DNA from: Corynespora cassiicola
Taxonomy: Eukaryota > Ascomycota > Dothideomycetes > Pleosporales > Corynesporascaceae
NCBI GenBank assembly: GCA_022059125.1
Contig: JAEUWY010000002.1
Span: 2,294,001 to 2,358,000, forward strand
Direction: 5' to 3'
DNA length: 64,000 nucleotides
Shown here: in pieces, positions 33,717-59,160 of the stretch
How positions within the stretch are numbered: the stretch's first letter is position 1
Layout: each line of letters starts with the position of its first letter
The notes under the pieces: model-generated
Told to the model about the DNA's origin: nothing
The model's input: only the letters and a program-made list of their open reading frames with translations
Databases searched by the model: none
Made by a program: the position numbers and the translations under genes

Positions 33717-34056
33717 GAATTAAATTCTATTTTTTATATATAGTATTTATAAATAAAGTATTTTTTTATAATATTTTTATTTAATAAATTAGAGTTTAAT
33801 TTTTTTAAAATTATTTTTAATATAGTTTAAACGTTTTTTAAAAGTACTAAATTTAAGCTATAAGCTAAATATTTAAATAGTTTTATTTATTTTTTTTAAA
33901 CTAGTTTAAAACTAGTTTAGCTATATAAATTTTTAAATTATTTTATTAAAATTTCTAATTTATAAACTAATTGATATTTATATAAATTTTATAATTCAAT
34001 ATTTAATTAAATAAATTTAATTAAATAGTTAAAAAAGATTTAAAGACTATTATATA
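33717..34056 (-). mobile_element. 3' half of an older Tc1-like element, disrupted by copy A
   Basis: Diverged homologue of the C-terminal transposase region of copy A (compare 34545-34870), read on the minus strand. It stops exactly at the TA beside copy A. Its missing 5' half is not on the other side of A but at 50445-55237. The 3' terminus beyond about 33717 is lost. Confidence 0.75.
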
Positions 34057-36184
34057 CAGAGGGGTGACATTAAAAAAAAACTAAAAAAAAGTTATACTTT
34101 TTAAACTAGTATAACTCTGTAACTAGACTAGCTATTAATATAAAAAAAAATTAATTTTAAAGAGATTTGAAGGCTCCTTTTCTGTATTAAAAATAATATA
34201 TAGCTTATATAATATTTATTGCTTAAAAATTTAAAGTAAAAGTATAGTAAAAAAAAATGCAAACTTAAAAGCTGATTTATTTTTTTTCTAGCGTAAAATT
34301 TTTATTTTTTATTTTCTTATTTTAAAGTTGTATACAGTATATACTTGTAATTTTTTTTAAAAAATATTTTTTTTATTTTTTAAAAAAAAAATTAATAGTA
34401 GAATTTTTTTTTTAAAAAATTAAATTATATAAATCAATTAATAATTAATTAAATTATTAATATTTTGTATAATACCCGTTAGCTTTATTAACTGCCTCCC
34501 AACGTCTAGGTAAAGATAATATATAATTATCTATTATTTTTTGTGGAATTAAATTCTATTTTTTATTTATAGCGTTTATAAATAAAGTATTATCTTTTTT
34601 ATTATTTTTTTTGCCTAATAAATTAGGATTTAATTTTTTTAAATTATTTTTTAATATAGCTTAGATATTTTCTATAGGTGCTAAGTCTGGGCTATAAGCT
34701 GGATGTTTAAATAATTTAATTTTATTTTTTTTAAACTATTTTAAAACTGGTTTAGCTGTATAAATTTTTGAATTATCTTGTTAAAATTTCCATTCTATAA
34801 AGTAATTAGTATTTATATTAATTTTATAATTTAATATTTAATTAAATAAATTTAATTAAATAATAAATTTAATAAAAAAATAAAAAAAAGGTATATAAAC
34901 TAACCGGGTTTTATTTATTTTTTAATAATAGATTTTAATACTTTTTATATATAATCCGTATTATTAAAGTTATTTTTAGAATTAGGTGTTTTAATAAACA
35001 CTAATTCTGATCTTTCTTCTATCTAAATAGCTCCCCATACTGATATAACAATATCTCGAGCTATAATTTAATTAGTACTAATTTTTTTAAAAAAGTAATT
35101 AAATTAAAAAATTACAATTAATTTTTAATTAATTTTAATTTTTTTAAATTTTCTTTTTATTTACAATTTGATTTTATAAAAGCTAATTCAGCTCCTACTC
35201 TTTTATTTCTCTTCTTTCTTATATATTCTTATCTAGAACCTAGGCCTTTTTCTATTACTAACTTATCAGAAAATATAATTTTATTTAAATTTATATTTTC
35301 TAAATTTTTTAATTATTTTTTTACGTATTTTAATCTTATTTCAGCTTTTTTTTTATTTTAATACGGCTTTTTAGTACTAATATTTTTACTATAATTTTCT
35401 TCTTTTAAATATCTTTGTAAGCTTCTTTTAAATATTTTTATATTATTTTCTAGTAATATTCTTTTATTTGTTTTTTTAGGGCTTTTAATTAAATCCCTAT
35501 TAATAATTCTTTTATCTCTTTTAAATAGCTTAATTTTATCTTAATTTCTTTCTTTTTTTAAGCTATTAAATAATTTATTTTTTTTATTTATTTTTTGTAT
35601 AGTATTTTTAATACTTGTTTTATTTTTATTTAATATATTAGAAATAGTTATAATAGGTGTATTGGCTTTTAATAAAAGATTAACTTTTTCTTTATAGTCT
35701 GAAAATTGAGGTTCCATCTTATCTTTGTTCAGAGGAAATAGAGATTCAGAATTTTTTTCTAAAATACTTATTTATATACTAATTTAACTAGTTTATTATT
35801 ATATAATTAGTGCTTATATAAGCAAAACTTTATTTTTTAAACTTTATTTTTTAAATATTAAATTAAATTTCTAGCTCCAGTTTTTTGCTTACGTAATATA
35901 GACTAAGCTTAATTAAGTTAGCGTAAAATAAAAAGTTTTAATCATTTTTCAAATAAAAAATAAATCAGCTTTTAAATTTATACTTTTTTTTACTATACTT
36001 TTACTTTAAATTTTTAAGTAATAAATATTATATAAGCTATATACCATTTTAAATACAGAGAACAAGCCTTTAAATCTCTTTAAAATTAATTTTTTTTTAT
36101 ATTAATAGCTAGTCTAGTAACAGAGTTATACTAGTTTAAAAAGTATAACTTTTTTTTTGGTTTTTTTTTAATGTCACCCCTCTG
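34057..36184 (-). mobile_element. Tc1-like transposon copy A
   Basis: 2,128 bp, TA on both sides. Termini begin CAGAGGGGTGACATT, and the inverted repeats continue for roughly 220 bp with scattered differences. Almost identical to copy B (55238-57364), which lies in opposite orientation. Confidence 0.92.
34457..35717 (-). pseudogene. Tc1-like transposase (DDE_3 type), copy A
   Basis: Minus-strand ATG at 35717 (MEPQFSDYKEKVNLLL), an HTH-like first part, and a C-terminal part with the family motifs HPAYSPDLAPIENI and LPRRWEAV, ending in GYYTKY. Many TAA/TAG interruptions (first near residue 60, KKERN-stop-DK) and a loss of frame (1,261 bp is not a multiple of three). Dead, but its lesions are the same as those of copy B. 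Confidence 0.88.
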
Positions 36185-39100
36185 TACTAATTTTAGTATA
36201 GTATAGTTATTTTTAAATAAATTTATTTTTACGTATTTTATAAATCTATTTATAACTACTAAAATAGTATTATAAAATATTTTAAAAACTAGGTTATAAA
36301 ATGTTAGTAGTTTAGTAATAAAATCTATAATAATATTTATTTAGAGTTTATTTAGTATTTTTATAGCTTATAGCTTTCTATACTAAGCGTGTGTATTATA
36401 CTTATTTTTTTAATATATTATACATTTCTTAATAAACTTTATTACTTTTTTTTTTAATCTAAAAATATTATACGTCCGTTATATTAATTTAATTATTTAT
36501 TTAATATTTAAATATTTGTATAATAGATTTTTATAATACTACTAAATAATAGTTTAGTAAAGTTTTTTTAGTACTTATTAATATACTATTATAATAAAAT
36601 TAATACTGTATATTAGTTTTAAAGTGCTGTTTAGCGCTTACTTAAAAATAGCAGCTTTATTTATTAACTTAGTTTTTGTAATATCTGTTTTTCGGCTTAA
36701 AATATTTACTTATCTATTTTTTTTATTTAATATATAAATAATTTTAAATTTATATTATCTTAGTTTTTTATTTTATCTAGTATATTGTTAGTTTAATAGT
36801 TTAATTATTATAAATATTATTAAGTTTTTGTAATCTGAATATACTGTAAATTCTAAATAATTTTTTATATAAATTTTTTAATATTTAAAAAAGTCTATAA
36901 TAGTAAGTAATTTTTTATTATAAATATTATAATTTTTTTTTAGCTCTGCTGAACTTTTTTAGATAATAGATAATTAAATACTATTTACTTTTTTTTTTTT
37001 TTAGTTAATATATATTTTTATTACTAAGTTTAATGTATCTGTTTCTATATATAAAAGTTTTCTACTAGTAAAAAATATAAAAACTAGTAGTAATATGTTT
37101 GCTTTTTTAAGTGTCTTAAAAACTTATTATTAGTCTATATTTTACTTAAATAGTATATTTTTTTTATTAACTTTATAAGTAGTAGTGCTTTTTTTAAATA
37201 GTAATTAATAAACTATTTATTAAAAGTACAGAATTTTAAAAAAAATTATATATTTTTAATATTTTTTAGCGTAAGCTAGTTTTTAACTACTTTAATTTTT
37301 TTTAAACTAATTTTAATTTTATATTTTTCTATAATATATTCTAAAAATTTAACTTTTTTTTTATAAAATTTATATTTTTCTAGTTTAAGTTGTAGTTTTG
37401 CTTTTTTTTTTAAATATTTTAGTACTATTTATACGTACTAGATATATTTTTTAAAGTTTTTAAAAAAGACTAAAATATTATCTAAATATACAATAATAAA
37501 TATATCTAAATATACTTTTAATATATTATTAATAAGTATTTAATATATTGCAGGTGCGTTAGTAAAACTAAATAGTATTATAAAATATTTATAGTATTTA
37601 TACCGCGTGTAGAATACTGTTTTTTATTTTTTATTTTTTTTTATATATATTAAGTTATACGCACTTCAGAAATCTAAAATTATAAATATCTATATTTTAA
37701 ATAGCTTATTTCTAAGCTTCTAAATATTTAGTAGTAAATATCTATTTTTAATTATAATATTATTAAGTTTTCTAAAATCTATATATAACTTTAAAAATCT
37801 ATTTTTTTTAGAAATAAAAATAATTAAATATTCTGCTTTTAACGTTAATTTATATATAAATTTTTTTTTAAAATTTTTATTAAAATATATTTATAATACT
37901 ATAAGTTTTTTTTTAATAAACTGTAAATAAGTTTAAAAGTTAAATTTTTTTTTTTTAAAAAGCTATTTTGCAGTTCTAAAACTAATATTTAAATAATATT
38001 TTATTATTTACTTTTTTTAAAAAAAAATAGTTTTTATTTACTATATTTTTTAGAAATTACAGAAGTTACATAAGTTATTTTTAAAATTTTTACTTTTTTA
38101 TTTAGTAGCTTTTTATTAAATTTAGTAAAATTAACTTTTTTTTTTAAAAGCGTTTTAGTTAATTTTTTACTGCCTATATTATTTAGCGTAGTTCTATCTA
38201 TTATTAAATATTATTAATATATAGATTTTAATACGATAGCGTAATTACATTCTATAAATAAAAACTTTTTTTTTACTTAGTTAATATATAAATTATACTT
38301 TTTAAACTATAGAAGTTTTAAAATAATATTATAAATAGCTGTATCTATAATATTAAAAAAAATCTTTTTTTAGTATTTTTAGATATCTATAATAGTTATA
38401 GCTTTCTAATCTATTAATACTTTTTTTAGTATTTTTTTTTTAGTTACTAAATAAAAAAAATAAAGTTATTTATAAGTATGCGTTTTTGCTTTACTACGCT
38501 TTATAATCTACTATAAAAAATAGTTACGCTAAGCCTTTATATTTAATAATATTTTTATTTAGTATTTATTAAGTTTAATAAATAGTTTAATTAATTTTTT
38601 TAAGTTAGTAGCGTATAATATTTTAAGTCTATTTTAAGTACTAAGTATTATTCTAAAAAAAACTTATTACTAAATTTATATAAACGTTTTTTATTTTAGT
38701 AACGTTTATAATTTTTATATAGGTATATTTACTAAAAATTTTGCGTATATTCTCTATTAACTAGTATATTTATTATAAGTTTTTTATTTTTATTTATTTT
38801 AAAAAAGTATTATATTTATTATTTATTTTATAAATAAATATTGTATACGTGTGTTTTGCAGTTAAACTACTATTATATATATTTATATAGTTTTTTTAAA
38901 AACTATTCTACTACTACTTTATTTAAGTAGTAAATTTAGTATTAGTTTTTTCTACAGAATGTCTATAAGTAGCTTATATACTTTAAATTTTTTAAATTTA
39001 AATAGTATTATAGTTTTTATATATTTTAGCTTTATAAAAAATTTAAAACTATATTTAGTTTGCTGTTAAAATTTAGTAAAACTTCTAATTTAATTTTTAA

Positions 39101-41020
39101 ATTTAGTTAATTAACTTATTTTTATATTTTAAAACTACGTTATTATTAGCGTTTTTTTAAATTTTAATTTTTTTTATTTAAGTTATTATATTTTTTTAAC
39201 TATTTACGTATTACAGGTAATTTTTTTTACTATATAAATATTTTTATTAAATTTTTTTTTTTTTTTTATAGATTTTAGCTAGTTTTAATTTTTAATCTAA
39301 ATTTTTATTAACTTAAAATTTAGTAAGTTTTTCTAATTTATATTTACAGCTATAGTTACTTAAATATTTTTTATAATTATATATATTGCGAAAAGCTTTT
39401 TTTTTTTTAAAGCTAGATTTTTTAAATTTAACTTTTTTTAAAATACTTCTAAGCTCTATTTAAATATTTTTATTTTAATACTAAATATAGTTAAAAAAAT
39501 TTTTTATTTTTCTGTATTGCAGTAGTTCGCTATTACAGATAAATTCTGTTTTATAAAATCTGTTTATAATAATTTTCTATTTATTATCTGCGTTAGATTT
39601 ATTACTTAAAGTAATTTATAATATATTTAGCTGTTAAATAACTTTATTTTTTAATTAATAGTTTTTTACAATATAATCTGTTTTTCTATATATATAGTAA
39701 GTTATAGCTTTACTTTTAAACTTATTTTTTTTTTATTATTTTTTTTTCTATTTTTTAAATATTACTAAAAACTATTAATTTATCGCTATAGGTGTCGCAA
39801 ATAAAATATATTATTTTATATTTAACTTATTTACTAGTATTAGCGTTATAGTACTTTTTACTATAGTTTAGTTTACTACGTTATTTATATTTTAAATTTT
39901 AGTTTTAGTATAATTTTATACGCAGTTCGTACAGTTTTTAATTAATATTAATAAATTTATTTATAAGTAATTTAAGTAAGTTAAGCTAAGCTTTAGAACG
40001 TATAAGTTCTTTTTTAATATTAAATTTAAGTTTTTAATAATATATTATTATAAATATTTTATTATTTTATTTAGTAAAAATTAACAGTTATTAAAATTTA
40101 TTAGTATAATTAGCAGCTAAAGCCTGTTGCTTAAAATATTAAATAGCTTATTTAGTAATTTTATTTTTATTAAAAACTTTAAAAACTTATTTAATTTTTT
40201 TTTTAAATTTATTAAAGTTTTTTATTTATTTGTTAACATTGTTATTAGTTTTACTATTTTTATACTTAATAAAAACTAGTTTAATTTATTAAAGTATTTT
40301 ACTTTTTATATATATAGCTGTAAATATAACGTGTTTTTTTTTTTAATATTTTTATTTTAGAAGTTAAAAAATAAGTTAAGCTGTAAAAGCTAGTTTTTAA
40401 GCTTATTTTACTTTTTATAATAAAAATTAAATATTACTATTTTAATAGAATTATTATCTGCTGTATTAAGTTATATAATTATATTAGTAATAGCTTTAGT
40501 ACTAATAGTATTACTAGTTAGAATTAAAAATACGCGTAATTCTAAAGTAGTACTTATTTTAAAAAGTATTTATAATATTAAAGCTGTGCTATAAGCTATA
40601 AGCAAAACTAAAAAGTAAATAGCTACTTAAATTAATTTTTAAAAATAAATACTAGTAAAGTTACGTAAGTAAAATAATGTGCAATATACTATATAGATTT
40701 TTATATTAGTAATAAAGTATAATAAATTAATAGTTAATTCTAAATAATAGATTTACTAATAAAGTAAATATAATTATAAAGTATAATTATATAAATTTAT
40801 ATATAAGTGCTTTATCTGCGTTTACCTGTATCTATTATAAATACTTACTATTAGTATTTATAAATATTTACTTTGCTAAAATATAAGCTTTAAATTATAT
40901 AGTTTTTTTAATTATGTAATATAGTACAGTAGTCTTTTTTTAGACGCGTAATTATGTATATAATTAGAGCTACGCTTTTAGTATTGCCTGCCCAAATTCT
41001 TTTAAAACTGTATTATAATA
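36185..41020 (-). mobile_element. chromodomain-type LTR retrotransposon, 5' portion
   Basis: Minus-strand element: 5' LTR at about 40680-41020, then gag, reverse transcriptase (IVYLDNILVF at about 37470-37500, YLDD with RIP-changed Asp), and the start of the integrase core near 36.2-36.3 kb (motifs DFITKL and ILVVINRF). The frame is cut at the TA next to copy A; the rest of the integrase is at 57367-58830 on the plus strand. Together these make about 6.6 kb, a normal size. Confidence 0.85.
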
Positions 41021-42080
41021 ATATATAGTAAATTATACTTTTATTTTTAAATTTATTATTATTTTTTTTAATTTCTAAATATTACTAAAAATTATTAGCT
41101 TATTACTATAAATATTGCGAGTAAAATACGTTACTTTATATTTAACTTATTTACTAGTGTTAGCGTTATAGTACTTTTTACTATAGCTTAGTTTAGTACG
41201 TTATTAGTATTATAAATTTTAATTTTAGTGTAATTTTATATGTAATATATATAGTTTTTAACTAATATTAATAAATTAATTTATAAGTTATTTAAATATA
41301 TTTAGCTAAGCTCCGAAATATAAATTTTTTTCTAATATTAAATTTAAGTCTTTAATAGTATATTATTATAAGTATTTTATTATTTTATTTAATAAAAATT
41401 AATAGTTATAAAAATTTATTAGTATAGTTAGCAGCTAAAACCTGTTACTTAAAATATTAAATATTTTATTAAGTAATTATATTCTTATTAGTAATTTTAA
41501 AAACTTATTTATTTATTTTTCTAAATTTATTAAAAAAAATTATTTATTTATTTAATAATAATAATATTAGCTTTGTTGTTTTTATACTTAATAAAAACTA
41601 GTTTAATTTATTAAAGTATTTTTTTTATATATAACTACAAATATAACGCGTTTTTTTTAATATTTTTATTTTAAAAGTTAAAAAATAAGTTAAGCTGTAA
41701 GAGCTAGTTTTTAAATTTAATTTATTTTCTATAATAAAAATTAAATATTATTACTTTAATAAAATTATTATTTATTATATTAAATTATATATTTATACTA
41801 GTAGTAGTTTTAGTATTAATAATACTATTAGTTAAAATTAAAAATACGCGTAATTCTAAAATAGTATTTATTTTAAAAAATATTTATAATATTAAAGATG
41901 TGCTATAAGCTATAAGTAAAACTAAGAAATAAATAACTGCTTAAGTTAATTTTTAAAAATAAATATTAATAAAATTATATAAGTAAAATAAAATATAATA
42001 TACTATATAAGTATCTGTATTAATAATAAAGTATAATAAACTAATAGTTAATTTTAAATAATAAATCTACTAATAAAGTA
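39690..42080 (-). repeat. 1.33-kb tandem duplication of gag plus LTR
   Basis: 39690-40770 and 41020-42080 are homologous at an offset of about 1.33 kb (compare 39778-39920 with 41090-41240). The second copy has gag joined almost directly to the LTR, so its pol region is deleted, and it is cut at 42080 by the nested DNA transposon. Confidence 0.8.
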
Positions 42081-45000
42081 TAATGTAAAGAATAAGCGAG
42101 CCGATCTAATAAGCAAGTTAATTAGCTTCTAACTGCTCTAGCACCTACGCAACTACCTACTTAACTACTTTAAAAAAATACTGTAATAATTTAATATAAA
42201 AAGTAACTATAGTAGTTATACTATTATTTTATATATATAAAAATTATATTTTTATTTTCTACAGCGCGTATAGCGCTTTTTTAACTACTAGCTGCTACTA
42301 AAATAAACTATTTTTTTATACTTTTTTTTATTTAATTACTTTTTAATATTCTTTTAAGTTATAATTTTAGCTTTTTTAGTTTTTATTAAAATCTTTTTAT
42401 GCTAAATCTGTTTTTTATTTTATTTTATACGCTGTATAGCAGCTTTATTAGCTTTTTTTAAGTTTTTATTTTAGCTTTTAAGTAATACAGCTGTTTAAAA
42501 TATTACTACAGCTTTTTTTTAAGCTAATTAATAGCTATAAAAATAAAACTAAATAATAAATTTTTATATTTTTTAATTCTATTATAAATTAATATTAATT
42601 AAGCCTCTAGCTTATATACGTTACTTAGTATTTTAGCTTTTTATTAAATAGTTTTAGAAAAAGCTAGCGTAAATATACGTAGCTTTATATTAAGCTTTAA
42701 TAGTACTATTTTTAAATTATAAAAAACTATTTCTGTTTTTTAAAAGCTTACACGTATATTACTTTTTATAAAAAATTATTTAAAAACTTTTTTAAAAGCT
42801 AGTAAAAAAGTAATTCTATTAATATAGTTAATATAATTATATATTAAGCTAGAAATTTTATTACTGTACGCGCGTTTTAAAAGCAAAAAATACTTTATAT
42901 TAATAAACTAAAAAAAAAAAAATATAAAAGTATATAAAAAATAATAATTTTACTTTTTATAATGTATTTTATAAGCGAGCGGCGCATATAAGCGAGCGGT
43001 GTATTTTCTAACTATTCTAGCACCTACGCAACTACCTACTTAACTACTTTAAAAAAATACTATAATAACTTAATACAAAAAGTAACTACAGTAGTTATAC
43101 TGTTATTTTATATATATAAAAATTATATTTTTACTTTCTGTAGTGTGTATAGCGTATTTTTAACTGCTAGCTACTACTAAAACAAGCTACTTTTTTATAC
43201 CTCTTTTTATTTAATTACTTTTTAACGTTTTTTTAAGCTATAATTTTAGCTTTTTTAGCTTTTATTAAAATTTTTTATTATTAAATTTATTTTTTATTTT
43301 GCTGTCTACGCTATATAGCAGCTTTATTAGCTTTTTTAAAATTTTTAATTTAGCTCTAGAGTAACACAGCTAAATAAGCTATTATTTTAGCTTTTTTCTT
43401 AAACTAACTTAAAGCTTTAATAATAAAAGCAGGTAATAAGTTTTTATAACTTCTAATTTTATTATAAATTAATATTAATTAAGCCTTTAGCTTGTACGCG
43501 TTACTTAATATTCTAGCTTTCTACTAAGTAGTTTTAGAAAAAACTAGTATAAACGTACGTAGCTTTATATTAAGCTTTAATAGTACTATTTTTAAATTAT
43601 ATAAAACTATTTTTACTTTTTAGAAGCTTACGCGTATATTATTTTTTATAAAAAATTATTTAAAAGCTTTTTTAAAAGTTAGCAGAAAAGTAATTTTATT
43701 AATATAGTTAATATAATTATATATTAAGCTAAAGATTTTATTACTGTACGCCCGCTTTAAAAGCGAAAAACACTCTATATTAAAAAACTAAAAAAAATAT
43801 AATAAATATAGAAATATATAGAGAGTAATAATTTTACTTATTTTGCAGAAGTTTTAAAAAGCTAAAAAATTATAGCTTTTATAGCTATTAATAATAAGTA
43901 GTTAGTACGTTTCTACTATACAGCTCTGTGTATAGATGTTAAAATACTTTAGCTAACTTATACTTAGCTTATTTATTATTTAGCCTGTCTCGCTAAGCAA
44001 TATATATTAACTAAATAAAATATTATTACTTTTATACTATATAAAAAAATAGTGTTTATTTATAAAAATAATAAAAAAAAAAATTATTTAGCTGCACGCG
44101 TTAATTTTTTAAATTACTATAATTTACTTATAATTATTTAGCTAAGTACTTTTAAATTAATTTTATTTTTTTAAAGCTGTAACTACTAATTAAGCTAAAA
44201 TTATATTTATTATAAAGTTTATTTTATTAAAGTTGTACGTGTTTTTATTAATAATACTATACTTTTTTTTTATATAATACAGTAATTTAAACTAAAAGCT
44301 AATAATTTTAGAATTTTTATATAGAACGCGCTAGTAATTCTACTAGTAAATTAATTAAACTTAAAAATCTAGCTAACGCTTAATAAAGTTGCTAAATTAG
44401 TTAATACTAATATAGTTTACTTTTTACGCAGTAAATAATTAATTAGCTATATTATATATAGTATTTAGTATAGGTGTAAATTTTTGCAAATCTAGCTTAA
44501 AAATACAAATAATAATTACTTTTTTTTAATTTTAGTTAGCTGTTTTAAATTAAGCTAGTAATTATATTACACAGGTTATCCAGCGCGTTAATAATAAATT
44601 ATAATTTTTAAAATTTTATAGACTTTAGCAGCGCGTTATACGCTTTAAATTAAGTAATTATTAATAGCTAAAAAAGTAAGAACTATAGAGGCCTTTTTAT
44701 AAGTTAATTAGAATTTTTTTAGTAATAGTATTATAAGTGTAAGTAGTATGTGCTGAGGTAGTTAGAAAGTGCGCCGCTCGCTTGTATACGCTGCTTACTT
44801 ATAGTTTATATTATAAAAGTTCTAAAAAGTAAAAAAGTTATAGTTTTTATAACTATTAATAAGTAGTAGTTAATATATATTTACTGTACAGCTCTGCGTA
44901 TAAATATTAAAATACTCTAACTAATATATTTTTAACTTATTTATTATTTAGCCTGTCTCGCTAAGTAATATATACTAACTAAATAAAATATTATTATTTT

Positions 45001-45780
45001 TAAACTATATATAAAAGTAGTATTTATTTATAAAAATAATAAAAAAAAAAATATCTAGCTACACGCGTTAATTTTCTAAATTACTATAATTTATTTATAA
45101 TTATTTAGCTAAATACTTTTAAATTAATTTTATTTTTTTAATACTGTAACTACTAACTAAGCTAATATTATATTTATTATAAAACCTGTTTTATTAAAGT
45201 TATATATATTTTTATTAATAATACTGTATTTTACTTTTATATAATATAGCAGCTTAAACTAAAAACTAATAACTTTAAAATTTTTCTATAAAATATATTA
45301 GTAATTCTGCTAATAGATTAATTAAATTTAAAAATTTAGCTAACGTTTAATAAAGTTATTAAGCTATTTAATACTAATAAAGCTTGCCTTTTATATTGTA
45401 AGTAACTAATTAGCTATATTATATATAATAGTTAGTATAGGCGTAAATTTTTATAAATTTAGCTTAAAAATATAAGTAATAATTACTTTTTTTAAGCTTA
45501 GTTAGCTGTTTTAAGTTAAGCTAGTAATTATATTTTACAGGTTATTTAGTATGTTAATTATATAATGTAGTAAATAGAATTTTATAGACTTTCGCAGCGT
45601 GTTTTATACTTAAAATTAAATTATTTTAAATTATTATAAAAGTTAAAATTATATAAACTTTATTATAAGTTAATTAAAAATTATTTAGTAAAAGTATTAT
45701 AGGTATAGATAGCTCGTGTTAGAGCAGTTAAAAGACTAATTAGCTCGCTTATTTAATCAGCTCACTTATTCTTTATATTA
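42081..45780. mobile_element. 1.85-kb TA-flanked DNA transposon F, interrupted by G
   Basis: Inverted termini: TAATGTAAAGAATAAGCGAG at 42081 and its RIP-altered mirror ending at 45780; similarity extends for at least 70 bp. A 17-bp tandem motif (AAGCGAG... at 42094, AAGCAAG... at 42111) follows each end. Without G the length is about 1.85 kb. It sits inside the retrotransposon LTR fragment, whose sequence partly resumes at 45781. No transposase can be read. By terminus design it is probably pogo/Fot1-like. Confidence 0.8.
42960..44813. mobile_element. 1.85-kb DNA transposon G, same family, nested in F
   Basis: 1,854 bp. Terminus TAATGTATTTTATAAGCGAG at 42960, mirror ending 44813, and tandem motif at 42973 and 42990 (17-bp period). 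Its body from CTCTAGCACC-like sequence inward is clearly homologous to F (43017 onward versus 42147 onward). The F sequence on both sides rejoins at a TA. Confidence 0.85.
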
Positions 45781-46994
45781 TATAATTATAAATATATATT
45801 TAAAACTTCTGCTTAGTACTACTTAGTAGACTAATTAACTAAGTATATTACGTAACCGGCTATAGCAGTATAACTTTATCAGCTCTATTATTAGTCTATA
45901 CTTATAGCTTATAATACTTTTATATACTATATATTTTTTTTAATTTTTTAATTTTACTAAATTCTCTGTTACTAAATTAAAATATTTTTAAATTATTTAA
46001 GTTTTAACTATTATTAATAATACAGCTTTTATTAAATTTTTTTTTTTTTACTATAACTAAACTAAAAATTAAAGTTTTACTAAGTATGTAATTTAAACTA
46101 AATAAAAAATAGTTAGTTTATTACTATTTAATATTAATTACGTACTAAAGTTTTTCTTAATAATAAGTTAGCTAATTATTTTATTAGTTTAAAAAAAAGC
46201 TGTATTACTAATAAAAAATTTTATAGCTATTTTTTAAAATTTTTAAAATTTTTACTAAATTTAATAAAAACTTTAAATAACTAAAAAAGTTAGCTATAAA
46301 ATCTAGCTATTATTTTATAAAGTTAGTAAAAAAAATTTAAAAACTAATATAAAAGCTGTAGATTTTAAAACTAAAATTTTAAAACTAAAAACCTAGCTAT
46401 ATTTAGACTTTAAAGCTTTTACTATTAAATTTAAATAAACTCTAATTTATAATTTATAGATATTAAAAATATTAAAACTATAATAAGCTAATTAGTAGTT
46501 TAGCCGGCTTAGCCGGTTTATTAAAATAATTATATATAATTTTTTTTTTATAAAATACTATAATAGCTACTATAAAAACTTTTAAATATATATATTTTAA
46601 TTAAAAAGTTTAGTAGTAATATATATATTTTTATAGTATAGCTTATTTTTTTAAAAATAAGTAGAACTAAAAAGTAAACAGAACTTTTATAGCCGAGCTT
46701 ATATAATTATTAATTATATATCTGTCGTAACAGAAAAATAACAGATTTTAATAAATCTAGATATTTATATTAGTCTAGTAATAGCATAGAACTAATAGAA
46801 ATAGTTAATAATTATAGAGCTATTACGGGCTTTTTACAGAATTACTTAATAATATATTTACTCTTTTATAAAGCTCTTCTATTAAGTAGTAAAAAAAAAA
46901 AAAAAAAATTTAGTAGTTAGCGTAAATCTACAGATTTTTTATTTTAGTTGCTTTACTAGTTATTAAATAGTAGTAAGTAGTATAAAATACGTAT
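45781..46994. other. RIP-decayed DNA, partly the far end of the 47-48 kb pseudogene
   Basis: Very AT-rich. The first about 40 bp resemble the interrupted retrotransposon LTR. Near 46.65-46.99 kb the minus strand shows a decayed frame (SRFIKICYFSV, then LQKF-like text with stops) that lines up as continuation of the gene broken by the solo LTR. The rest (45.83-46.6 kb) is unassigned. Confidence 0.4.
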
Positions 46995-47350
46995 TATAAA
47001 AATACAGAGCGACTTATTTCTAATATAGTTTAAATACTATTTAAAATAAAAGTTTACAGAACTAGAGAATAATTATAAATTAAAACTTATAAATTTTATA
47101 TAAATTTTTTTTAAACTATAAAACTATCTAAAAATATTATATTTTTTTATATTTTTTTTCTAAAATTTTTTATTTTTAGTTTAGTCTAATACTAACTTAA
47201 TTATAAAAATAAAAAAATTTAAATAGCTAAATATTTAAACTTAAATTAAAGTTAAATTAAAAATTAAAATTAAAGTTTAGTTAAAAGTTAAAATTACGTG
47301 CGTAATACTAGAAAGTAAATTTAAACTTTATGCGGACGAGGTTCGTTACA
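46995..47350 (-). mobile_element. solo LTR of the 7.2-kb Gypsy-like family
   Basis: 356 bp, homologous end to end to the LTRs at 25498 and 32356, and flanked by a perfect 5-bp duplication CGTAT (46990-46994, 47351-47355). No internal sequence is attached, so it formed by LTR-LTR recombination. The edge facing the gene island keeps TGTAACGAACCTCGTCCGCA nearly unmutated, while the other side is heavily A/T. Confidence 0.9.
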
Positions 47351-47995
47351 CGTATACCTATTTATTACATTTTTTTTCCCGATTATAAATAGCGCTATTA
47401 GTTTTACCAGTCTGGCCTTTTTTAATAAAAGATATCTATAGTAATAATCAGGCTGCGGCGTTTCTAACCGTATATTCTTAGCTGCAAAACTAGAGGCAAA
47501 AAGCAAAAATTAGGTATTAAGATTCGGCTTCGCCGCACGTTCAACAGCCGCTATACTGCCTTTACTAGCAGAAACTAAAAGTAATAATTCTTCTAATAAA
47601 TCTATGCTATTCTGTTCGGACCGCGACCGTGCTATAGGTGCCGTTTTTTAAAGCCTTTTTGTGTTTAGAAATGGAGCTTTCTGGGGCTTATAAAAGCTTA
47701 ATACGTGCTGCTTAAGTATACTTAGTATAGAGGCGCGTTCTTTGTAAAAGATATTAAAAAGCTGTAGCTTATCTTTCAGGTTTATTCTGTTAGCTAGACT
47801 GCTTTTTTCCGGCGACCGCGATCTCCGGGATGGTGATGAAGGTATTGGAGAATCTCTTTTGTGTAGATCATGTTGTAGCCGCTGGATATTTTCCCGCGTA
47901 AGTGGAAGCGAAGGAGGCTGGGTAAATTAGTCTGACTGCTTATCGTATTTATATTATATAACTGTTTCTATAGGCGGCGGGCGGAACAAATAGAA
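47351..47995 (-). pseudogene. unknown gene killed by CAA-to-TAA changes and an LTR insertion
   Basis: One minus-strand frame can be read for about 210 codons from 47995 (after a TTTTTCAG, perhaps an intron acceptor): FYLFRPPPIETVI, then LTRENIQRLQHDLHKRDSP, SRRSRSPEKSSLANRINLK, LDLLEELLLLVSASKG-like text and LLLKKARLVKLIALF. It is broken only by four TAA codons, each explicable as CAA changed to TAA, with no frameshift. It then runs into the solo LTR and seems to go on beyond it. I do not recognise the family. An upstream exon may lie at about 48030-48200 (KKRTRSEGDDHADGSPL, LLTTAATADYSTIDTLFR). Confidence 0.6.
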
Positions 47996-49062
47996 CTGAA
48001 AAATTAATTTAGAAGGCGAATAAGATGGACTAGTTGCCTCTGGAGGTGGCGAAGAGAGTTAATGCGGAACAGAGTGTCTATAGTACTATAGTCAGCAGTG
48101 GCAGCAGTAGTCAGGAGTTTGATGCTGTACTTGTGTCGGGCCTGTTGCTTGAGGGGCGATCCGTCGGCGTGATCGTCACCTTCCGAGCGCGTACGCTTTT
48201 TTGCATGAGTTAGAGAGGCCGTATTTTTAATGAGAGTGCAAGCGTAGAGAAGCGGGTGGGTGTTGGTCGCGAAAGGGATGACGCGACATGGATGGCTCAC
48301 TGTTGTGCAGGAAGGCGGTGATAGATGGCAGAACAACCCCACCATCCGAACTATCACGAGCTTGTTCCAATCACGTCTTCATTGTCACTTCAATCCAGCA
48401 AATACGAGTCTCAATTAATTTTTATTGTAATAGTACACTGCGAGCTCGTTAAAATGTTAACAACACCTAGTTACTACTTTTGCAGGAGCTTATTGGCCTT
48501 TTCTGGTTCCTGTTATGGAGCTATGTATTTTGATCGTGTTTCAGGACCCTTGCTACGGGCACTGTGAGATTTCTAACTATCACAGTCCATCACGTCTCGT
48601 GCGTGCTATATTGTACTTTATTCTTACACCAAAATTTTGCTAAATCGAACTTGCGCAAGAAATCTCAGCTCGTCGCATACGGTAGTATAGCACTTTCCTT
48701 TCTTTCCTTTGTTGAGCATGTCTCATGGCTGGCTTCTGAAGTGGAGTAGATGCAACGAATCAGGATAGACGGTGATAAGAGAGCGTATTTCAAAGACATC
48801 TAGTAACAGAGAACAATGTGAGTGGAGCAGCCGCCGAGTACGGCTAGCCTCGTTACTTGTGTTGCTTATACTCCGCGGCGGTCGTGGACCGTTTTTGCCG
48901 GTTAGTGATAACAGCTCGACTTCTCTTTCGTCGGCTCGCCAAAGCAGTGCTGGAACGCCAACGCGGAAGGAGCAGGTGGCTATGGCCTTGACCGTCGGTG
49001 CTTAAACCTACCTTCTCACCCTTCGTCCAACGATCTTTGCACAACTTCACATCTCAATCACA
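47996..49062. other. gene-island DNA, possible exon of the pseudogene and GNAT promoter
   Basis: GC-normal. A minus-strand open frame at 48004-48357 may contain an exon of the broken gene (basic, RS-rich). 48.4-49.06 kb shows no recognisable gene and should include the GNAT promoter. Confidence 0.4.
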
Positions 49063-49838
49063 ATGAAAATATACCGCGCTTTCACAGCCCTTTTTATTTT
49101 CTTTGTCAACGTCGCAAAATGCCAACAACAAATCATCGATGCGCAACCCCTCCTTCGCAATGCCCGCTTCGAGGATGCAGATGATATCGCTAGCGTTATA
49201 ATCGCCGCATTTTCTCCTGTTCCTTCTTGGCAATATATCCATCAGTTTCGCGATGAATATCCTAAAGAACACCATCGGTGTGTACGCTTTGGTGTCGTTC
49301 AGGCATTGATATCGGCGTCTTACCGTGTAGAAGTAGTCGAGGCGCCTGCAGAGAGCAGCCTCATGGTAGCCGCTGTGGCTATGTGGCGACAGAACACATC
49401 GCTGGATGGAATGGCCTTGCACCGATTCTCTGGTAAGGGAAACTCAATGGGAAATAGATATACGCTGATTGAAACCGAGAGGAATGCAAGCACAGAGACA
49501 TGAATCTCACTCGCGCACTTGATATAGAACATAAATCCACTGCTGCCAAGCAAAAGTATGTCGACGAGCCTTTCGGCTCGGATCAGTTATATCTCGATCT
49601 TCTGTGTACACATCCAGATTTCCAGTTACATGGGGCTGGGACAAGACTGGTGAGAAGAGGGGTTAGGATTGGCAAGAAAGACGATATCAACGTCACGTTG
49701 ATAGCACTGCCCACTTCTGAAAGCTTCTACGCTCACATTGGGTTTGACTCTATTACAAACTTCAGCGTCTCATCTGTTGATAAAGATGAATACTTTCGGT
49801 ACGATGTGATGGCGTACAACTTCACTTCTATGGAATAA
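49063..49838 (+). CDS. GNAT-family N-acetyltransferase with a predicted signal peptide
   Basis: Two exons, 49063-49432 and 49498-49838, with a 65-bp intron (GTAAGG donor, ACAGAG acceptor) splitting an Asp codon; 236 aa. The acceptor was chosen because only it restores the conserved frame into MNLTRALD. GNAT features: LLRNARFEDADDIASVIIAAF at the start of the fold; LYLDLLCTHPDFQLHGAGTRLV (strand 4 and the acetyl-CoA loop, with HGAG in place of the usual R/Q-xx-GxG/A); and the tail LPTSESFYAHIGFDS. GNATs move an acetyl group from acetyl-CoA to an amine; the substrate here is unknown. Residues 1-20 (MKIYRAFTALFIFFVNVAKC) look like a secretion signal, unusual for this family; translation from a later site would remove it, but there is no nearby ATG. 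It is the only intact gene between two RIP blocks. Confidence 0.8.
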
Positions 49839-50444
49839 TGGGTTTTAAAACTGAACCTCTTACAAGAATGGCTGTGGCCTGTAGAATGAATAATATATAT
49901 CAATACAACTACCAGGGCTAACTTACATGTGCATTTACTATCCTTTGTAGCGTTTACTGAAGTATCTGCTCCCTGCCACCTCGCAGAACTTGTACCGATA
50001 TACAGCCGGAAGCCGCCTTATTTTTTTTGCTAATTCTCTTACTTTGTTAAATTTATTCTTATAGTTCTGCTCTTTAATCGCTGTAGTATTATTATTAGTA
50101 TATTTACAGACTAGAGACGGAGAACCGAGAACGCTATGTAAATTGAAGGGGGGGAGCGATTAATGCCGGATGGGAGGGTGTGGACAATATAAACTAAGAT
50201 CTCAGTAGCTTCAAAAAGTGTTACAACACCGTGGGCTCTTTTTAAGCTGCAGAAACGCGCACGCCGCAGCCGCATCTTTATATTTCGCAGCCTTAAGCTT
50301 TCTGATATAGTATCTAGCAGGTGTATATCTGTAGTTAGATAAAAATAGTTTATAGAGACGCTTTAGGTCTAGTTAGAAACAAACTATACTCGCTCCGTCT
50401 ACTGTATTGCACCTAAATACTGTTAAAGAACTTAGAGGTTTATA
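49839..50444. other. end of the gene island, no gene seen
   Basis: GC-normal, falling towards the right. A pyrimidine/AT mixture without recognisable coding sequence. The RIP-type composition begins near 50.45 kb. Confidence 0.5.
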
Positions 50445-50611
50445 CAGTGGGGTGACATTCAAAAAGAGTCATCGAAAAAACAGTACCTTTTAAACTTATA
50501 TAACTTTTTAAATACACTAGCTATTTTAAAAAAAAAAAATTAAGTTATTTAAAGATTTAATAGATTTTTATTTATAAAAAAATAGAGTAGCTTATATAAT
50601 GTTTATAGCTT

Positions 50612-53600
50612 TAACGTGTTCGGTAAGCGAGTAAAACAGATAAGTAAATAAAACAGCTTTACCGCGCGTCGCGTATATAAATAACTCTAATAAATTATAA
50701 AATAAAAAAATAAAAGCTAATAAAATTACTATTAAGATTTTACGCGTTTTACGTACGTATAAATAGTATATTTAAATAACTAGTATATACTATACTTAAA
50801 TAGTATACGCTTTTAAAGTTAAATATATATTATATAAATTTTACTTTACAGAGCTTTTTTTAAATTTATTTTACTACTATACTATTTTATACTATTTTCT
50901 AACTTTTTTAAATAGTTAATATATTTTCTTTTAATAGTTATATAACGTGCTGTCTGCTTACGTTTTTAATATATATTTTTAATTTAAAATATAGTATTTT
51001 TAACTTTAAAAATTATTTTTTTATATATAATTTTTTTAATGTTTTTTAATAACTGTTAAAATACGTAATCTGTTAGTAACTAAAAAAATTTATATAAAAT
51101 TTTTATTATTTTTAAATATATTTTATTTAACGTTTTATTTTAATAAAAATATAAAATATTTTTAATTTTTACTTAAGTTTTTCTATATATATAAAACTTA
51201 GTATTTGTATAATAGAATTTAAATACTAAAAAATTTATTTTAAATTATATAAAACTAGCTTAATAGCTTAAAAATTATTTTTAATATTTTTTATTATAAT
51301 AGCTGCTGTATACGCTGTATAGTATACTTTAAAAAACTTTTTTTTTATAATATAGTTTATACTAAGCTTTATTTTGTTTTAATTTTTTTATTATATAACG
51401 CTGTTAAAAAGCTAAAATAGCTTATATTTAACAGCTAAAATAAACAAATAAAAAGTAAAAAAAATAGATAAAAAGTAAAAATACTGTTCTGTTTACAAAA
51501 CTTTTTAAACTAACTAAAATAATAACTTTTATACTTATTTATAATAAAAAAAATTATTTTTTTTATATAAGCTTTTATATACTTATTAAAGTATTATGTT
51601 TATTTATATTTAATCTAATTATCTGTTTAGCTGTTTTTACTAACTATAATTACTTAATTATATAATAAATTATAGTTTATATATTAAATTATTTAGTAAA
51701 GCTTTACTATAAAAATAATAAAAAATAAAACTTTCTACTTTTAAGTATTAACTTTATATATAATAGTAATTTATTTATAGTTTTTAAGCTAAATAGTTTT
51801 AATATAGCTTTTTTATTTTATTTTTATAATAACTTTTAAAGTTATAATAGTATTTATTTAAAAGCTAGTTTTATTAAAGTTATATATATTATTTTTAAGT
51901 ATTTTATATTTTATAATTATATTTTATATAAAGTTAAACTATATTTAAATAATAGTAAAATTTTCGCATGCTGTTTGCTAATAATTATACTTATAATTAT
52001 AAATTATAAAAAGTATTTTTTAGTAATTAATAAAGTTTTTAATTTATTTTTAGCTAATAATTTAAAATTTAAAACTATTTTATATTTAAAAAATAAAATT
52101 AGCAGTTTTTTATATAACTAAAATTAAAAAAAATTATTTTACGTAATAAAGTTAAAAATATATTTAAAAAAAAATTTTTAGTAGCTATAAGTTTATATAT
52201 TACTAAATAAAAATTATATTTTAAAAAAATACTATAATAGCAGCGCGTAAAAGTTATATAAAATATATTATATAATTAAACTGCTTAATAAAGGCTTTTA
52301 AATTAATTTAAATTATATACTTAAATAGCTAAAGTAAGTCTGCTTTCTTTTATAAACTAAAAAAATTAAAATCTATTAATATATACTACGGGCGAGTTGG
52401 TTAACAGGCGAATTAGTTACTTTTACTAAAACTATACTAAAATCTAACTTATTATAGCTTAAAATACTATATTTTAGCTTTTTATAGCAGACTACAGCAC
52501 GTAATATTATTTAAAAAAAAAATTTATATTAACTTTATACGTTCGCGCGTTATATTTAGTTTAATTATATTTTTTACAGCGTTTTTAAAATAGCTTACTT
52601 TTTTAAATATATATTTGCTTTTTTACTTTTTTTTTTATTACTACGTACTTTAAACTTTTTTAAAACTACTAGTTACTGTCTATTTTTAACTATTAATTTT
52701 TTTTTAAATTTACTTTTTTTATATAATTTTTATTATATAGTAGTTTTATTAGCTGCTTAAAGCTTTCTAATTTTTTATTAAACTAAAATTAGTTTATATT
52801 TAATAATTGCGGCTTTTTTTAATACTTTTTTAAACGCTTTAACTATAAATATAAAAAAACTATTTATATATTTTTAAATTTTTAATTTTATAAGCGTTAA
52901 TTATAATTTAAAATTTAAAGTATTACTAGAAGTTTGTAACTGCTAGAGTATATTATTTATAATAAATAATAATAATAAAGTTTAAAGCTTTATATTAAAA
53001 ACTAATATAATTTATCTTAGGTTAAAAAGAACTAATTTAGTATTTTAAAAAAAATTTTAAATATTACTAAAAGTAAATACTATATTATAAGCTGTTTTAA
53101 AATATAGTAGAAACATAAATTTTATAAAGTAAGTAATTTAGTTATATATAAGTATTTTAGTTTAGCGTCTGTACGCAGTTTTTAAAAAAATAAAATAATT
53201 TATATTAAATAGTTATAAAAAATATAATAAATACAGAGATATATATAGAGTAATAATTTTATTATTTTTATAGTATTACTAGAAAAGAAGCGATTTATAG
53301 CTTTTATAACTATTAATAACTAATAATTAGTAAATACTAATAGTATATTTCTTTATATACTTATTAAAGTACTTTAACTATTTAAAACTAAGCTTATTAG
53401 TTATCTAGTTATTACTAGAGATTTTAATAACTTAGTTTTAAAACAGATTTTTTTTATACTAGCTAGTAAAGTAGTAGCGCGTTTTAAAAATAATAAAAAA
53501 TAAAATAGTTTATTTTTTAGTATTAATATTTTATATAACTATTATCTACTTATAGTTACTTAGCTAAACTATTTTTAACTTTTTTTATTATTTTAAAGCT

Positions 53601-54324
53601 GTAATAACTACTTCTATTAATATTTAGTTTATTATAAAATTTATTTTATTAAAGTTATACGTATTGTTATTTTAAATATTATACTTAGTTTTAATACTAG
53701 CTATTAAACTAAATTAGCTTTAAATTACTTTAAAGTTTTTATATTTAGCTTTTTTATAGTTATATTTTCAATTAAATTTTACTTTAAACTTTAGTTAATA
53801 CTTTATAAACGTACTAAGCTAGTTTATATTAATAAAATTTAAATTATATTTAGCGCGTAGAAAATTAGCTATAGTAGCTATATTTACTAGCTAAAAGCTA
53901 AATTTTTACGCGTTTAGCTTAAATATATAATTAATAATTACTTACTTTTTATTATTATTTAATTTTTATAAATTAAATATAGTATTAGTTTATAAAAGTC
54001 GTTCTGCGCGTTAGTTACTTAGTATATTTTAAAATACTTTATAAATAGCTGCAGCACGTTGCTAAAAAAAATTTATATTTTATTTAAAAACTTAAAATAT
54101 AAACTATACTTAAGTTTTCTAAAACGTGTTAATAATAAATTATTATTAAAGCATTAGTGTAAAAAAAGTATTTTAGTATAGTTTTAGTAAAAGTAACTAA
54201 CTTGCCTGTTAACTGACTCGCCCGTAGTATATATTATATTATTATAGTTAAAAAATACTTATACGCGACGCGCGGTAAAACTTATTATTTATTTATTTAT
54301 TTTACTTACTTACTAAATATATTA
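50612..54324. mobile_element. 1.85-kb TA-flanked DNA transposon D, interrupted by E
   Basis: Terminus TAACGTGTTCGGTAAGCGAG at 50612, with a RIP-altered mirror ending at 54324; tandem motif at 50625 and 50642 (17-bp period). Both ends then share CCGCGCGTCGCGTATA. Without E it is 1,853 bp. The same terminus, nearly unmutated, recurs at 63214. Confidence 0.82.
52377..54236. mobile_element. 1.85-kb DNA transposon E, nested in D
   Basis: 1,860 bp. Ends TAATATATACTACGGGCGAG (52377) and mirror (to 54236). The subterminal motif repeats at 52391 and 52407 (16 bp here). The outer CG-containing ends are well preserved compared with the body. No coding frame remains. Confidence 0.82.
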
Positions 54325-55237
54325 TATATTAAAAAAAATATACTAGAAAAATAAAAAAATTAAAAGCTGTAATACTTTTTTTTTATTAAGTTATTTTAAC
54401 TTTTTTATATATTAATTAAATATAGTTTAGTTTCTATTATATAAGTAAAAAAATTAGAGCTAGAAATCTAATTTAATAAAAAAATAATTAAATTTAAAAT
54501 ATAAAGTTTTGCTTATATAAGCACTGATTATATAATAATAAAGTAGTTATATTAGTATATAATTTTTCTTTTTAGAAATAGAAATCTAAATCTCTATTTT
54601 TTTAAAATAAAAATAAAATAGAACTTTGACTTTTAACTTATAAAAAAAAGTTAATATTTTATATAAAGCTAATATATTTATTATAACTATTTTTAATGTA
54701 TTAAATAAATCTAAAAAGTATTTATAATATTATATAACGTATTAAAAAAATTATTAATAGAGACTTAATTAAAAGCTCTTAAAATAATAAAAAGATATTA
54801 TTAGAAAATAATATAAAAATATTTTAAAAAAACTATAGTATTAATATTAGTGCTAAAAAGCTTTATTAAAAATAAGGAAAAGTTAAAATAAAGTTAGAAT
54901 ATATACAAAATTAATTAAATAATATAAAAAATATAAATTTAAAAAAAATAGTATTTTCTAATATATTAGTAATAGAAAACAACCTAAGTTTTAAGCAGAA
55001 ATAAATAAAAAAAATATAAAAATAGAAGCTGAATTAGCTTTTACAAAATTAAATTATAAGTAAAAAAAAAAATTAATACTAATTTAATTATAACTTAAGA
55101 TATTGTTTTATTAGTATAAAAAGCTATTTAAATTAAAAAAATTACTATTTATTAGAATATTAAATTCTAAAAATAACTTTAATGATACAAATCGTATATA
55201 AAAAGTATTAAAAATTTATTATTAAAAAATATATATA

Positions 55238-57364
55238 CAGAGGGGTGACATTAAAAAAAAACCAAAAAAAAAGTTATACTTTTTAAACTAGTATAACTCT
55301 GTAACTAGACTAGCTATTAATATAAAAAAAAATTAATTTTAAAGAGATTTAAAGGCTCCTTTTCTGTATTTAAAATAATATATAGCTTATATAATATTTA
55401 TTACTTAAAAATTTAAAGTAAAAGTATAGTAAAAAAAAGTATAAATTTAAAAGCTGATTTATTTTTTATTTGAAAAATGATTAAAACTTTTTATTTTACG
55501 CTAACTTAATTAAGCTTAGTCTATATTACGTAAGCAAAAAACTGGAGCTAGAAATTTAATTTAATATTTAAAAAATAAAGTTTAAAAAATAAAGTTTTGC
55601 TTATATAAGCACTAATTATATAATAATAAACTAGTTAAATTAGTATATAAATAAGTATTTTAGAAAAAAATTCTGAATCTCTATTTCCTCTGAACAAAGA
55701 TAAGATGGAACCTCAATTTTCAGACTATAAAGAAAAAGTTAATCTTTTATTAAAAGCCAATACACCTATTATAACTATTTCTAATATATTAAATAAAAAT
55801 AAAACAAGTATTAAAAATACTATACAAAAAATAAATAAAAAAAATAAATTATTTAATAGCTTAAAAAAAGAAAGAAATTAAGATAAAATTAAGCTATTTA
55901 AAAGAGATAAAAGAATTATTAATAGGGATTTAATTAAAAGCCCTAAAAAAACAAATAAAAGAATATTACTAGAAAATAATATAAAAATATTTAAAAGAAG
56001 CTTACAAAGATATTTAAAAGAAGAAAATTATAGTAAAAATATTAGTACTAAAAAGCCGTATTAAAATAAAAAAAAAGCTGAAATAAGATTAAAATACGTA
56101 AAAAAATAATTAAAAAATTTAGAAAATATAAATTTAAATAAAATTATATTTTCTGATAAGTTAGTAATAGAAAAAGGCCTAGGTTCTAGATAAGAATATA
56201 TAAGAAAGAAGAGAAATAAAAGAGTAGGAGCTGAATTAGCTTTTATAAAATCAAATTGTAAATAAAAAGAAAATTTAAAAAAATTAAAATTAATTAAAAA
56301 TTAATTGTAATTTTTTAATTTAATTACTTTTTTAAAAAAATTAGTACTAATTAAATTATAGCTCGAGATATTGTTATATCAGTATGGGGAGCTATTTAGA
56401 TAGAAGAAAGATCAGAATTAGTGTTTATTAAAACACCTAATTCTAAAAATAACTTTAATAATACGGATTATATATAAAAAGTATTAAAATCTATTATTAA
56501 AAAATAAATAAAACCCGGTTAGTTTATATACCTTTTTTTTATTTTTTTATTAAATTTATTATTTAATTAAATTTATTTAATTAAATATTAAATTATAAAA
56601 TTAATATAAATACTAATTACTTTATAGAATGGAAATTTTAACAAGATAATTCAAAAATTTATACAGCTAAACCAGTTTTAAAATAGTTTAAAAAAAATAA
56701 AATTAAATTATTTAAACATCCAGCTTATAGCCCAGACTTAGCACCTATAGAAAATATCTAAGCTATATTAAAAAATAATTTAAAAAAATTAAATCCTAAT
56801 TTATTAGGCAAAAAAAATAATAAAAAAGATAATACTTTATTTATAAACGCTATAAATAAAAAATAGAATTTAATTCCACAAAAAATAATAGATAATTATA
56901 TATTATCTTTACCTAGACGTTGGGAGGCAGTTAATAAAGCTAACGGGTATTATACAAAATATTAATAATTTAATTAATTATTAATTGATTTATATAATTT
57001 AATTTTTTAAAAAAAAAATTCTACTATTAATTTTTTTTTTAAAAAATAAAAAAAATATTTTTTAAAAAAAATTACAAGTATATACTGTATACAACTTTAA
57101 AATAAGAAAATAAAAAATAAAAATTTTACGCTAGAAAAAAAATAAATCAGCTTTTAAGTTTGCATTTTTTTTTACTATACTTTTACTTTAAATTTTTAAG
57201 CAATAAATATTATATAAGCTATATATTTTTTTAATACAAATTTAAAACCTCTAAATTTCTTTAAAATTAATTTTTTTTTATTTTAATAGCTGATCTAGTT
57301 ACAGAGTTATAATAGTTTAAAAAGTATAACTTTTTTTTGGTTTTTTTTTAATGTCACCCCTCTG
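55238..57364 (+). mobile_element. Tc1-like transposon copy B
   Basis: 2,127 bp, TA on both sides, same termini as copy A and opposite orientation. In the segments compared, it differs from A by single bases only (for example near 55305 and 55358). Confidence 0.92.
55705..56965 (+). pseudogene. Tc1-like transposase (DDE_3 type), copy B
   Basis: Same 1,261-bp length as in copy A, same first stop (KKERN-stop-DK) and same loss of frame. Readable motifs include MEPQFSDYKEKV at the start, and near the end the DDE_3 sequence HPAYSPDLAPIENI partly masked by changed codons, then LPRRWEAVNKANGYY. Non-functional. Confidence 0.88.
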
Positions 57365-59160
57365 TATAAATTATTTTAAATTGCGTAGTTAGATACTACA
57401 GATTACTTTAATTAGTTATTAGTAACAGAAATAAACCTTTTATATTAAACTATTAGATAATACTAATATTAGCTATTAAAATTAAAAAAAAATTATCAAT
57501 AGTATATTATTTATAGACAGACAGTTAAACAGAGAAAATAAATTAAACTATAAAAATATATTTACAGATATATAGTAACTAAAAATAAAATAATTAAGTA
57601 TTATTACTACTTATAGTATAACTAGTATTTAATAACAGAGAATTAGTAATAATAAAATAATTTTTTTATTACGCATTATACGGGATATATTTAAATCTTT
57701 TATTACTAAAAAAAAAAAAAAAAAACGAATTAAGCTAGTTGTAAGTTAAGTAATAGATAAATTAAAAAAACTATAAAAATTTTATAAATAACTATAAAAA
57801 AATATTAAAACAGCACAACGTAAAACTATTTCTTATATTAACTAAAAATAAAAAATAGTATCTTAGCTAAAGAAAAAAAATAAAGTATATTTTTTTATAA
57901 AAGACTTTTAAATAATATAATTAAGTAAAAAATTAGATTACGTTAAAGTCGGACTATTTTTAATTCTAGAATAAAAAAAACTAGTTAACTATAAACTCTA
58001 ATTTTTTACTAATACTAAAATATATTTAGTATTTTACGTATTACTATTAGAATCTACTAATACCGAAATATTAGTTTAAAAATACTTTTACTATAAAACA
58101 GAGAAAAAAGTTAAATTTAAAATTAAAAAAGTAAAAGTATATTAATAATTACTTAAAAGACGAGAATATTTAGTTAAATAGAAAAGTTACTCTAAGTCTG
58201 AAAATATATAAAAACTAAAAACTAACTTTAGAAATTACTTAATACTATTAAAATATTATTAAAAAAAAAAACAGCAGAATTAATAAAGTTTATTATAAAC
58301 TATATTGCAGGTAAAAATCTAACTAAAGTATTAGTAGTAGAATAGTTTATAAATTAAGCAGCGTCTAACTTACTATTTTTTTTATTTCTAATACTAAATA
58401 AAGCGTATTTTTCTTCGCACGCTCTTTAGTCTATTTTAATATTTTTTTATTTTATATTAACTAAAATATTACTTACGCTAATAACTTTTTTTTTTTTTTT
58501 TTAATACTTATTATAAGTATAGTTAAGTAACTTTTATAATAAGCTTACGTAAAAATAACTAAATTTAATATACTTAGCACACTTTAAGCGAGAATTAAAT
58601 ATAATAAAATAATCTTAGCTAAAAGCAAAATACTTATTATAAAAAAAAAAAAAAATTTACGCGATAGATTTTAGATATAAAATAAATATAATATACTTAA
58701 AAGTTAAAAAATATAATATACTAGTTATACTTATAAAACGCGGGGTAACGGCGTTTATAAGTAAAACTACTAATTAATTCTATAATTTAAAAATAAATTT
58801 AAAAAAAAAAATAGTATTATAATATAGTTTTAAAAGAATTTAGGTAGGCAACACTAAAAGCGCGGCTTTAATTATATATATAATTACATACTTAAAAAAA
58901 ACTGCTATACTATATTACGTAATTAAAAAAACTATATAATTTAAAGTTTATATTTTAGTAAAGTAAGTATTTATAAATATTAATAGTAAGCGATTATAAC
59001 AGATATAGATAAGCGTAAATAAAATATTTATATATAAGTTCGTATAATTATACTTTATAATTATATTTACTTTATTAGTAAATTTATTATTTAGAATTAA
59101 CTATTAACTTATTATACTCTATTACTAATATAGAAATCTGTATAGTATATTACACATTAT
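57365..59160 (+). mobile_element. chromodomain-type LTR retrotransposon, 3' portion with LTR
   Basis: Begins inside the integrase core at the TA beside copy B and contains the conserved QTDSQTEKINQ segment (about 57515-57550), the GPY/F-type C-terminus (KLDYVKVG and INYKL-like text, about 57930-58000) and a chromodomain (EYLVK-stop-KSYSKSEN, about 58160-58240), which in such elements reads histone marks to direct insertion. An LTR follows at about 58830-59160, homologous (reversed) to 40680-41020. The 5' part of the same element is 36185-41020. Confidence 0.85.

Follow-up and report, generated by a model that had tools for sequence, protein, structure and literature searches.

Sequence Setting of the Locus

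The window analysed here is a stretch of 64,000 nucleotides of the Corynespora cassiicola genome (G000:C2:2294001-2358000), which is assembled as 44.35 Mb in 23 contigs. Positions 1-24000 have a GC content of 56%, and the genes of this part carry Fungal_TACC, VPS9, HET, NB-ARC, and TPR domains. From approximately 25 to 63 kb, GC content is for the most part 11-22% and dinucleotide ratios are of the RIP type. This AT-rich DNA is broken at about 47.5-50.5 kb by a GC-rich island, inside which lies a GNAT-type acetyltransferase gene whose N-terminus resembles, by eye, a signal peptide. At the edge of the island, approximately 170 bp (window 50445-50614) match the ends of the Tc1-like family described below in both directions. 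Rfam and ARAGORN searches over the window gave no match.

The telomere repeats of the genome are TTAGGG; together with the composition and gene content above, they point to a filamentous fungus affected by RIP, probably an ascomycete. Interstitial arrays of this repeat occur in two megabase contigs (C2:2190800-2190925 and C1:3554575-3554670; loci L076 and L077). The C2 array lies about 103 kb before the window and is perhaps a misjoin, and the C1 array, judged by eye, directly follows Tc1-like-end sequence; such arrays would represent real fusions, healing sites, or misjoins.

The features on which the analysis rests are as follows.

33707-34056, minus strand: older Tc1-like element, left half, more degraded, with its TA target at 34055-34056 (84% identity to copy A 480-806)
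34057-36184, minus strand: Tc1-like copy A, transposase reading broken
34057-34194: outer end of copy A, a right-type terminal repeat, with a private 19-mer at 34170-34188
34195-36043 of copy A, equal to 55379-57227 of copy B: identity tract of 1849 bp, the presumed conversion tract
36185-38184, minus strand: 5' side of an LTR-type retrotransposon, broken at 36185 (extent as used for the query; the element may run further)
36185-55237: probable inverted segment, in what would be the derived orientation, including the GNAT island (from flank tests on both split elements)
49063-49838, plus strand: GNAT-type acetyltransferase gene of the island, read in two frames with an apparent intron or frameshift near 49500
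54329-55237, plus strand: second half of the older Tc1-like element, with its TA target at 55236-55237 (contiguous, as the reverse complement, with 33707-34056 in other copies)
55238-57364, plus strand: Tc1-like copy B
55352-55370, plus strand: second match of the 19-mer, at the inner end of copy B
57365-59256, plus strand: 3' side of the retrotransposon, starting with the TA target (from a separate genome search and frame reading)

Tc1-like Copies at the Two Joints

Copies A and B have CAGAGGGGTGACATT ends, lie in inverted orientation, and are RIP-type sequences of 16% GC. The terminal inverted repeats of A extend over about 259 bp at 89.7% identity, and those of B are found as two pieces of 85 and 87%. 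A translated piece of the putative transposase, with X at the stops, resembled the Pfam family HTH_Tnp_Tc3_2 with an E-value of 0.00057, its score of 20.6 bits lying below the cut-off of 31.5. The family is multicopy, with 264 matches in the genome, the best of which after A and B, among the matches listed, is 96% identical. TA flanks A and B on either side, as it does all 23 other full-length copies (those matching A 1-2128; three of 26 fetched copies, L039, L041, and L050, fall short of this and were left out). With TA at every copy, an exchange of target site duplications would leave no trace.

Aligned with the reverse complement of B, A differs in 24 columns (23 in the MAFFT alignment), all within 141 bp of an end: 17 columns out of 138 differ at the outer end of A, and 6 out of 141 at the inner. 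The tract between, which begins 137-141 bp from each copy end, contains no difference. The next closest copy, L003, differs from A by 43 transitions, 8 transversions, and 3 indel columns; at its rate of 53 differences in 1849 positions (54 by another count), a tract without any has a chance of about 10^-23.

Among the closest pairs compared, the combination of identical interior and divergent ends is peculiar to A and B. Interiors and ends were compared in 26 aligned copies, giving 325 pairs (two of the 26 fetched copies, L039 and L050, were too short and were dropped). Among the closest 14 of the 325 pairs, three have no interior difference, and the ends diverge in A/B alone; the other two, L008/L033 and L003/L004, show 0 and 1 end differences, and the rest, in which as many as 26 interior columns differ, show 0-3 at either end. 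That B is a recent transposition product of A, or A of B, does not suffice as an explanation, because such a copy would be expected to agree with its source at the ends as well, in the manner of the other near-identical pairs. Parallel saturating RIP as the source of the identical interior is disfavored both by the transversions and indels that separate A from other copies and by the differing ends of A and B.

L003 (C5:3227071-3229196) and L004 (C5:3242113-3244237) are RIP-degraded and occupy different TA sites, with identical interiors and ends one column apart, a likeness that suggests either mobilization in trans or a conversion that followed RIP. Matches in C5:3871876-3882325 and C2:5451287-5461736 stay at the same offset for about 10 kb, so that the two regions resemble a segmental duplication with a Tc1-like copy inside it (L008 and L033).

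Two Elements Split Across the Interval

The halves of the retrotransposon were searched separately in the genome, using 38 of 56 and 41 of 68 matches, the window's own included (the omitted matches miss the joint). In at least 15 cases both halves were matched on one strand of one contig, no more than 3 kb apart, and all 15 pairs overlap by exactly 2 bp, some of their ends being extrapolated by a few bases; matches outside these pairs have no partner among those listed. A second search, in which flanks of 280 bp were run against 77 loci plus the window, found 20 distinct sites, 12 of them new, and again a 2-bp overlap at every one (20/20). Taken together, the two tests find the halves contiguous at no fewer than 27 distinct sites, the overlap being the 2-bp TA target in each case; neither test gave any other gap. 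As the halves share a TA at these intact sites, they are one element cut at a TA. Read by eye, the presumed integrase frame continues across the joint through one TA. The element gave Pfam matches to RVT_1 (E-value 1.6e-13) and to Integrase_H2C2 (E-value 0.0048, below the cut-off of that family), while the integrase-core pieces matched no Pfam family; the core is read as an apparent integrase by eye, and the element is presumably Ty3/Gypsy-like.

The older Tc1-like element is a degraded member of the family of A and B themselves. At 36 distinct sites, A and B among them and 34 others, its two halves come together at the same internal point. The gap there measures +17 to +21 bp at 31 sites (14, 10, 8, 0, and -23 at the remaining five), so that the older element seems to be without about 20 bp at this point. 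As evidence this is weaker than the retrotransposon test, given that flank identities are 73-89% and that any intact family member would show the joint; what it does show is that the halves are complementary at one point.

The initial annotation had placed a 19-kb interval at 36185-55237, coordinates that are correct, between two near-identical inverted Tc1-like copies and two split elements. All of this is borne out: the retrotransposon halves at 36185 (minus) and 57365 (plus) are contiguous elsewhere in the genome and, by eye, join as one reading with one TA removed, the older halves at 55237 and 34056 make up one element at the 34 sites besides A and B, and the copies do sit at the joints, the confinement of their differences to the ends being an addition to that description.

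The flanks as now placed behave differently. Against the 77 loci and the window, the present flanks of A are contiguous at a single site (left flank at 67.9% identity, gap -5), judged to be spurious, and those of B at none. The same test was applied as a control to the 23 full-length copies, against the 77 loci and the window rather than the whole genome. For thirteen copies, one or more counterparts are contiguous and overlap by 2 bp, in some cases at a single locus; three are ambiguous (L034, L045, and L052), and seven (L004, L035, L036, L038, L046, L048, and L051) have no counterpart in this database. A missing counterpart for the flanks as placed therefore proves little by itself, and it is the positive crosswise matches that carry the case for an inversion. 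Nested insertions elsewhere show the ordinary arrangement: at L005 and L037 (hosts of the same family) and at L007 (host of the retrotransposon family), the host halves lie directly on both sides of the copy, with a 2-bp overlap.

Crosswise Ends of the Copies

In the Tc1-like family, left-type ends can be told from right-type ends. Both ends of A are right-type; B has one of each. The 19-mer in the outer end of A has exactly two matches in the genome at up to one mismatch, A itself and the inner end of B. Ends were compared among A, B, and 11 other copies. Paired as in the flipped order, the two ends of a copy differ at 5 and 19 positions, which can be set against two classes in the other copies: a homogenized class with 1-6 end-to-end differences (L008, L034, L036, and L037) and a class with distinct left and right ends, with 16-22 (L003-L007, L035, and L038). 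As placed, A has 11 differences and belongs to neither class; B has 17, in the ordinary class, which weakens the crosswise reading.

In trees of the separate zones (14 copies), the outer end of B and the inner end of A each cluster with L003, L005, and L006 (support 0.978 and 0.912). The picture for the outer end of A is less clean, as it shows 5 differences to the inner end of B and nearly as few, 6, to the right end of L035, and in a tree of all ends it pairs with the right end of L007 (0.909), the inner end of B standing beside that pair (0.789). The interior tree gives the tract no clear place (support 0.669). Taken with the private 19-mer, the crosswise ends point to the two ends of one original element now lying at the outer end of A and the inner end of B. 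On balance, by this comparison of ends, each present copy looks to have been assembled from parts of two original copies. Such chimeric copies fit a crossover, since a crossover inside both copies predicts these parts.

Origin of the Arrangement

Two different elements are thus split reciprocally, with exact joints, and the copies at those joints combine an identical interior with divergent ends. The best explanation, to which we give a probability of roughly 80%, is a 19-kb inversion by ectopic homologous recombination between two opposite-facing Tc1-like copies. The flipped order is supported as the ancestral one by the halves of both split elements, which are contiguous in the flipped pairing; as placed, the flanks of A are contiguous at one poor site and those of B at none. 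The initial annotation had proposed both the crossing-over between A and B and this polarity; the reciprocal splits with joints at the Tc1-like copies support the former, and the restoration of both elements on flipping the latter.

Before the inversion, a copy P would have been nested in an older member of the Tc1-like family, and a copy Q in the apparent integrase of the retrotransposon. A break in one copy would have been repaired from the other via strand invasion between the inverted copies, with about 1.85 kb of interior copied by conversion during the repair. Resolution as a crossover, in or at the edge of the identity tract, would then have turned round everything between. We infer that conversion and crossover were one event, and that the inversion arose in the organism rather than in assembly; the perfect identity of the interior would make it recent relative to mutation. 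The ends, taken alone, suggest Q as the conversion donor, a point that the interior tree does not decide.

The main rival, already raised in the initial annotation, is an error of assembly, in which the true order is the flipped one and the assembler crossed between the identical Tc1-like interiors. The same exchange of flanks and the same chimeric ends would be expected. The symmetric position of the tract edges, 137-141 bp from the ends, weakens the inversion reading, as it could also come from a read-length artefact, the identical interior with divergent ends then being a collapsed repeat; misjoins may likewise underlie the interstitial telomere arrays of C1 and C2. Against this, the 44.35 Mb lie in 23 contigs, those seen being up to 6.7 Mb, C1 and C4 carry telomere repeats at both ends (among the first 100 of 368 matches listed), and the window contains no N despite about 35 kb of AT-rich sequence. 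The assembly looks like one made from long reads, which would span 2.1 kb, and copies that differed throughout as much as they do at their ends would presumably not have been collapsed, so that the likeness of the interiors probably existed in the organism beforehand. An artefact is accordingly regarded as unlikely, though it deserves to be taken seriously.

Less probable again is that the segment with the GNAT gene flips reversibly, its copies being kept identical by repeated conversion. If this were so, the segment would be met in either orientation in different isolates or nuclei, and the RIP-degraded transposons would be a lasting switch for inversion.

Aberrant transposition, in which a hybrid element using the ends of two copies is inserted, draws some plausibility from the near-identical L003 and L004 at different TA sites, which may reflect fairly recent movement of the family. 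The model as set out in the relevant part of PMC2775673 predicts identical breakpoint copies, whereas A and B differ in 23-24 columns and their ends match crosswise, and we see very little chance that it applies. The least credible reading is a composite transposon, with A, the interval, and B arriving as one unit: two like inverted copies do surround a GC-rich island, but the outer flanks should then be halves of one site, and instead they belong to two different elements, each with its other half inside the interval.

Relation to Known Inversions

The probable inversion between Tc1-like copies resembles several known cases. The transposon Galileo made inversions in Drosophila buzzatii, for which ectopic recombination has been argued on the criterion of chimeric copies with exchanged flanks (PMC2775673). 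As in the part of that account drawn on here, opposite-facing copies of one DNA transposon lie at both breakpoints, are chimeric, and have exchanged flanks. The present case differs in that the target is just TA, so that the exchange is read from split host elements rather than from target duplications, in that the copies are RIP-degraded, and in that the event is known from the inverted chromosome alone (compared with PMC2775673). In Leptosphaeria maculans, 30 inversions of 1.3-355 kb have been described, 70% of them bordered by transposable elements (PMC4210507); these too, in the portion of the report used for comparison, are small, intrachromosomal, and set in an AT-rich, RIP-affected fungal genome, and were found through synteny between lineages, whereas here breakpoint anatomy in one genome was used. 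A Cladosporium fulvum segment with Avr4E is missing in some isolates and has near-identical Tc1/mariner copies on its flanks (PMC10823647). The likeness to the passages of that study considered here is a rearranged segment between near-identical Tc1/mariner copies; there it was lost between the copies, here it would be inverted. The kind of event is already known, and the present locus is a clear further example, here between RIP-degraded copies.

The breakpoints are resolved finely enough to reveal chimeric copies, and an inversion can be polarized inside a single genome by taking as outgroup those copies of the split elements that are uninterrupted. Because it makes repeats diverge, RIP is usually held to reduce recombination among them. 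Here, RIP-type copies with 1.85 kb of perfect identity seem to have rearranged a chromosome, and dead repeats of this kind may thus still reshape AT-rich compartments.
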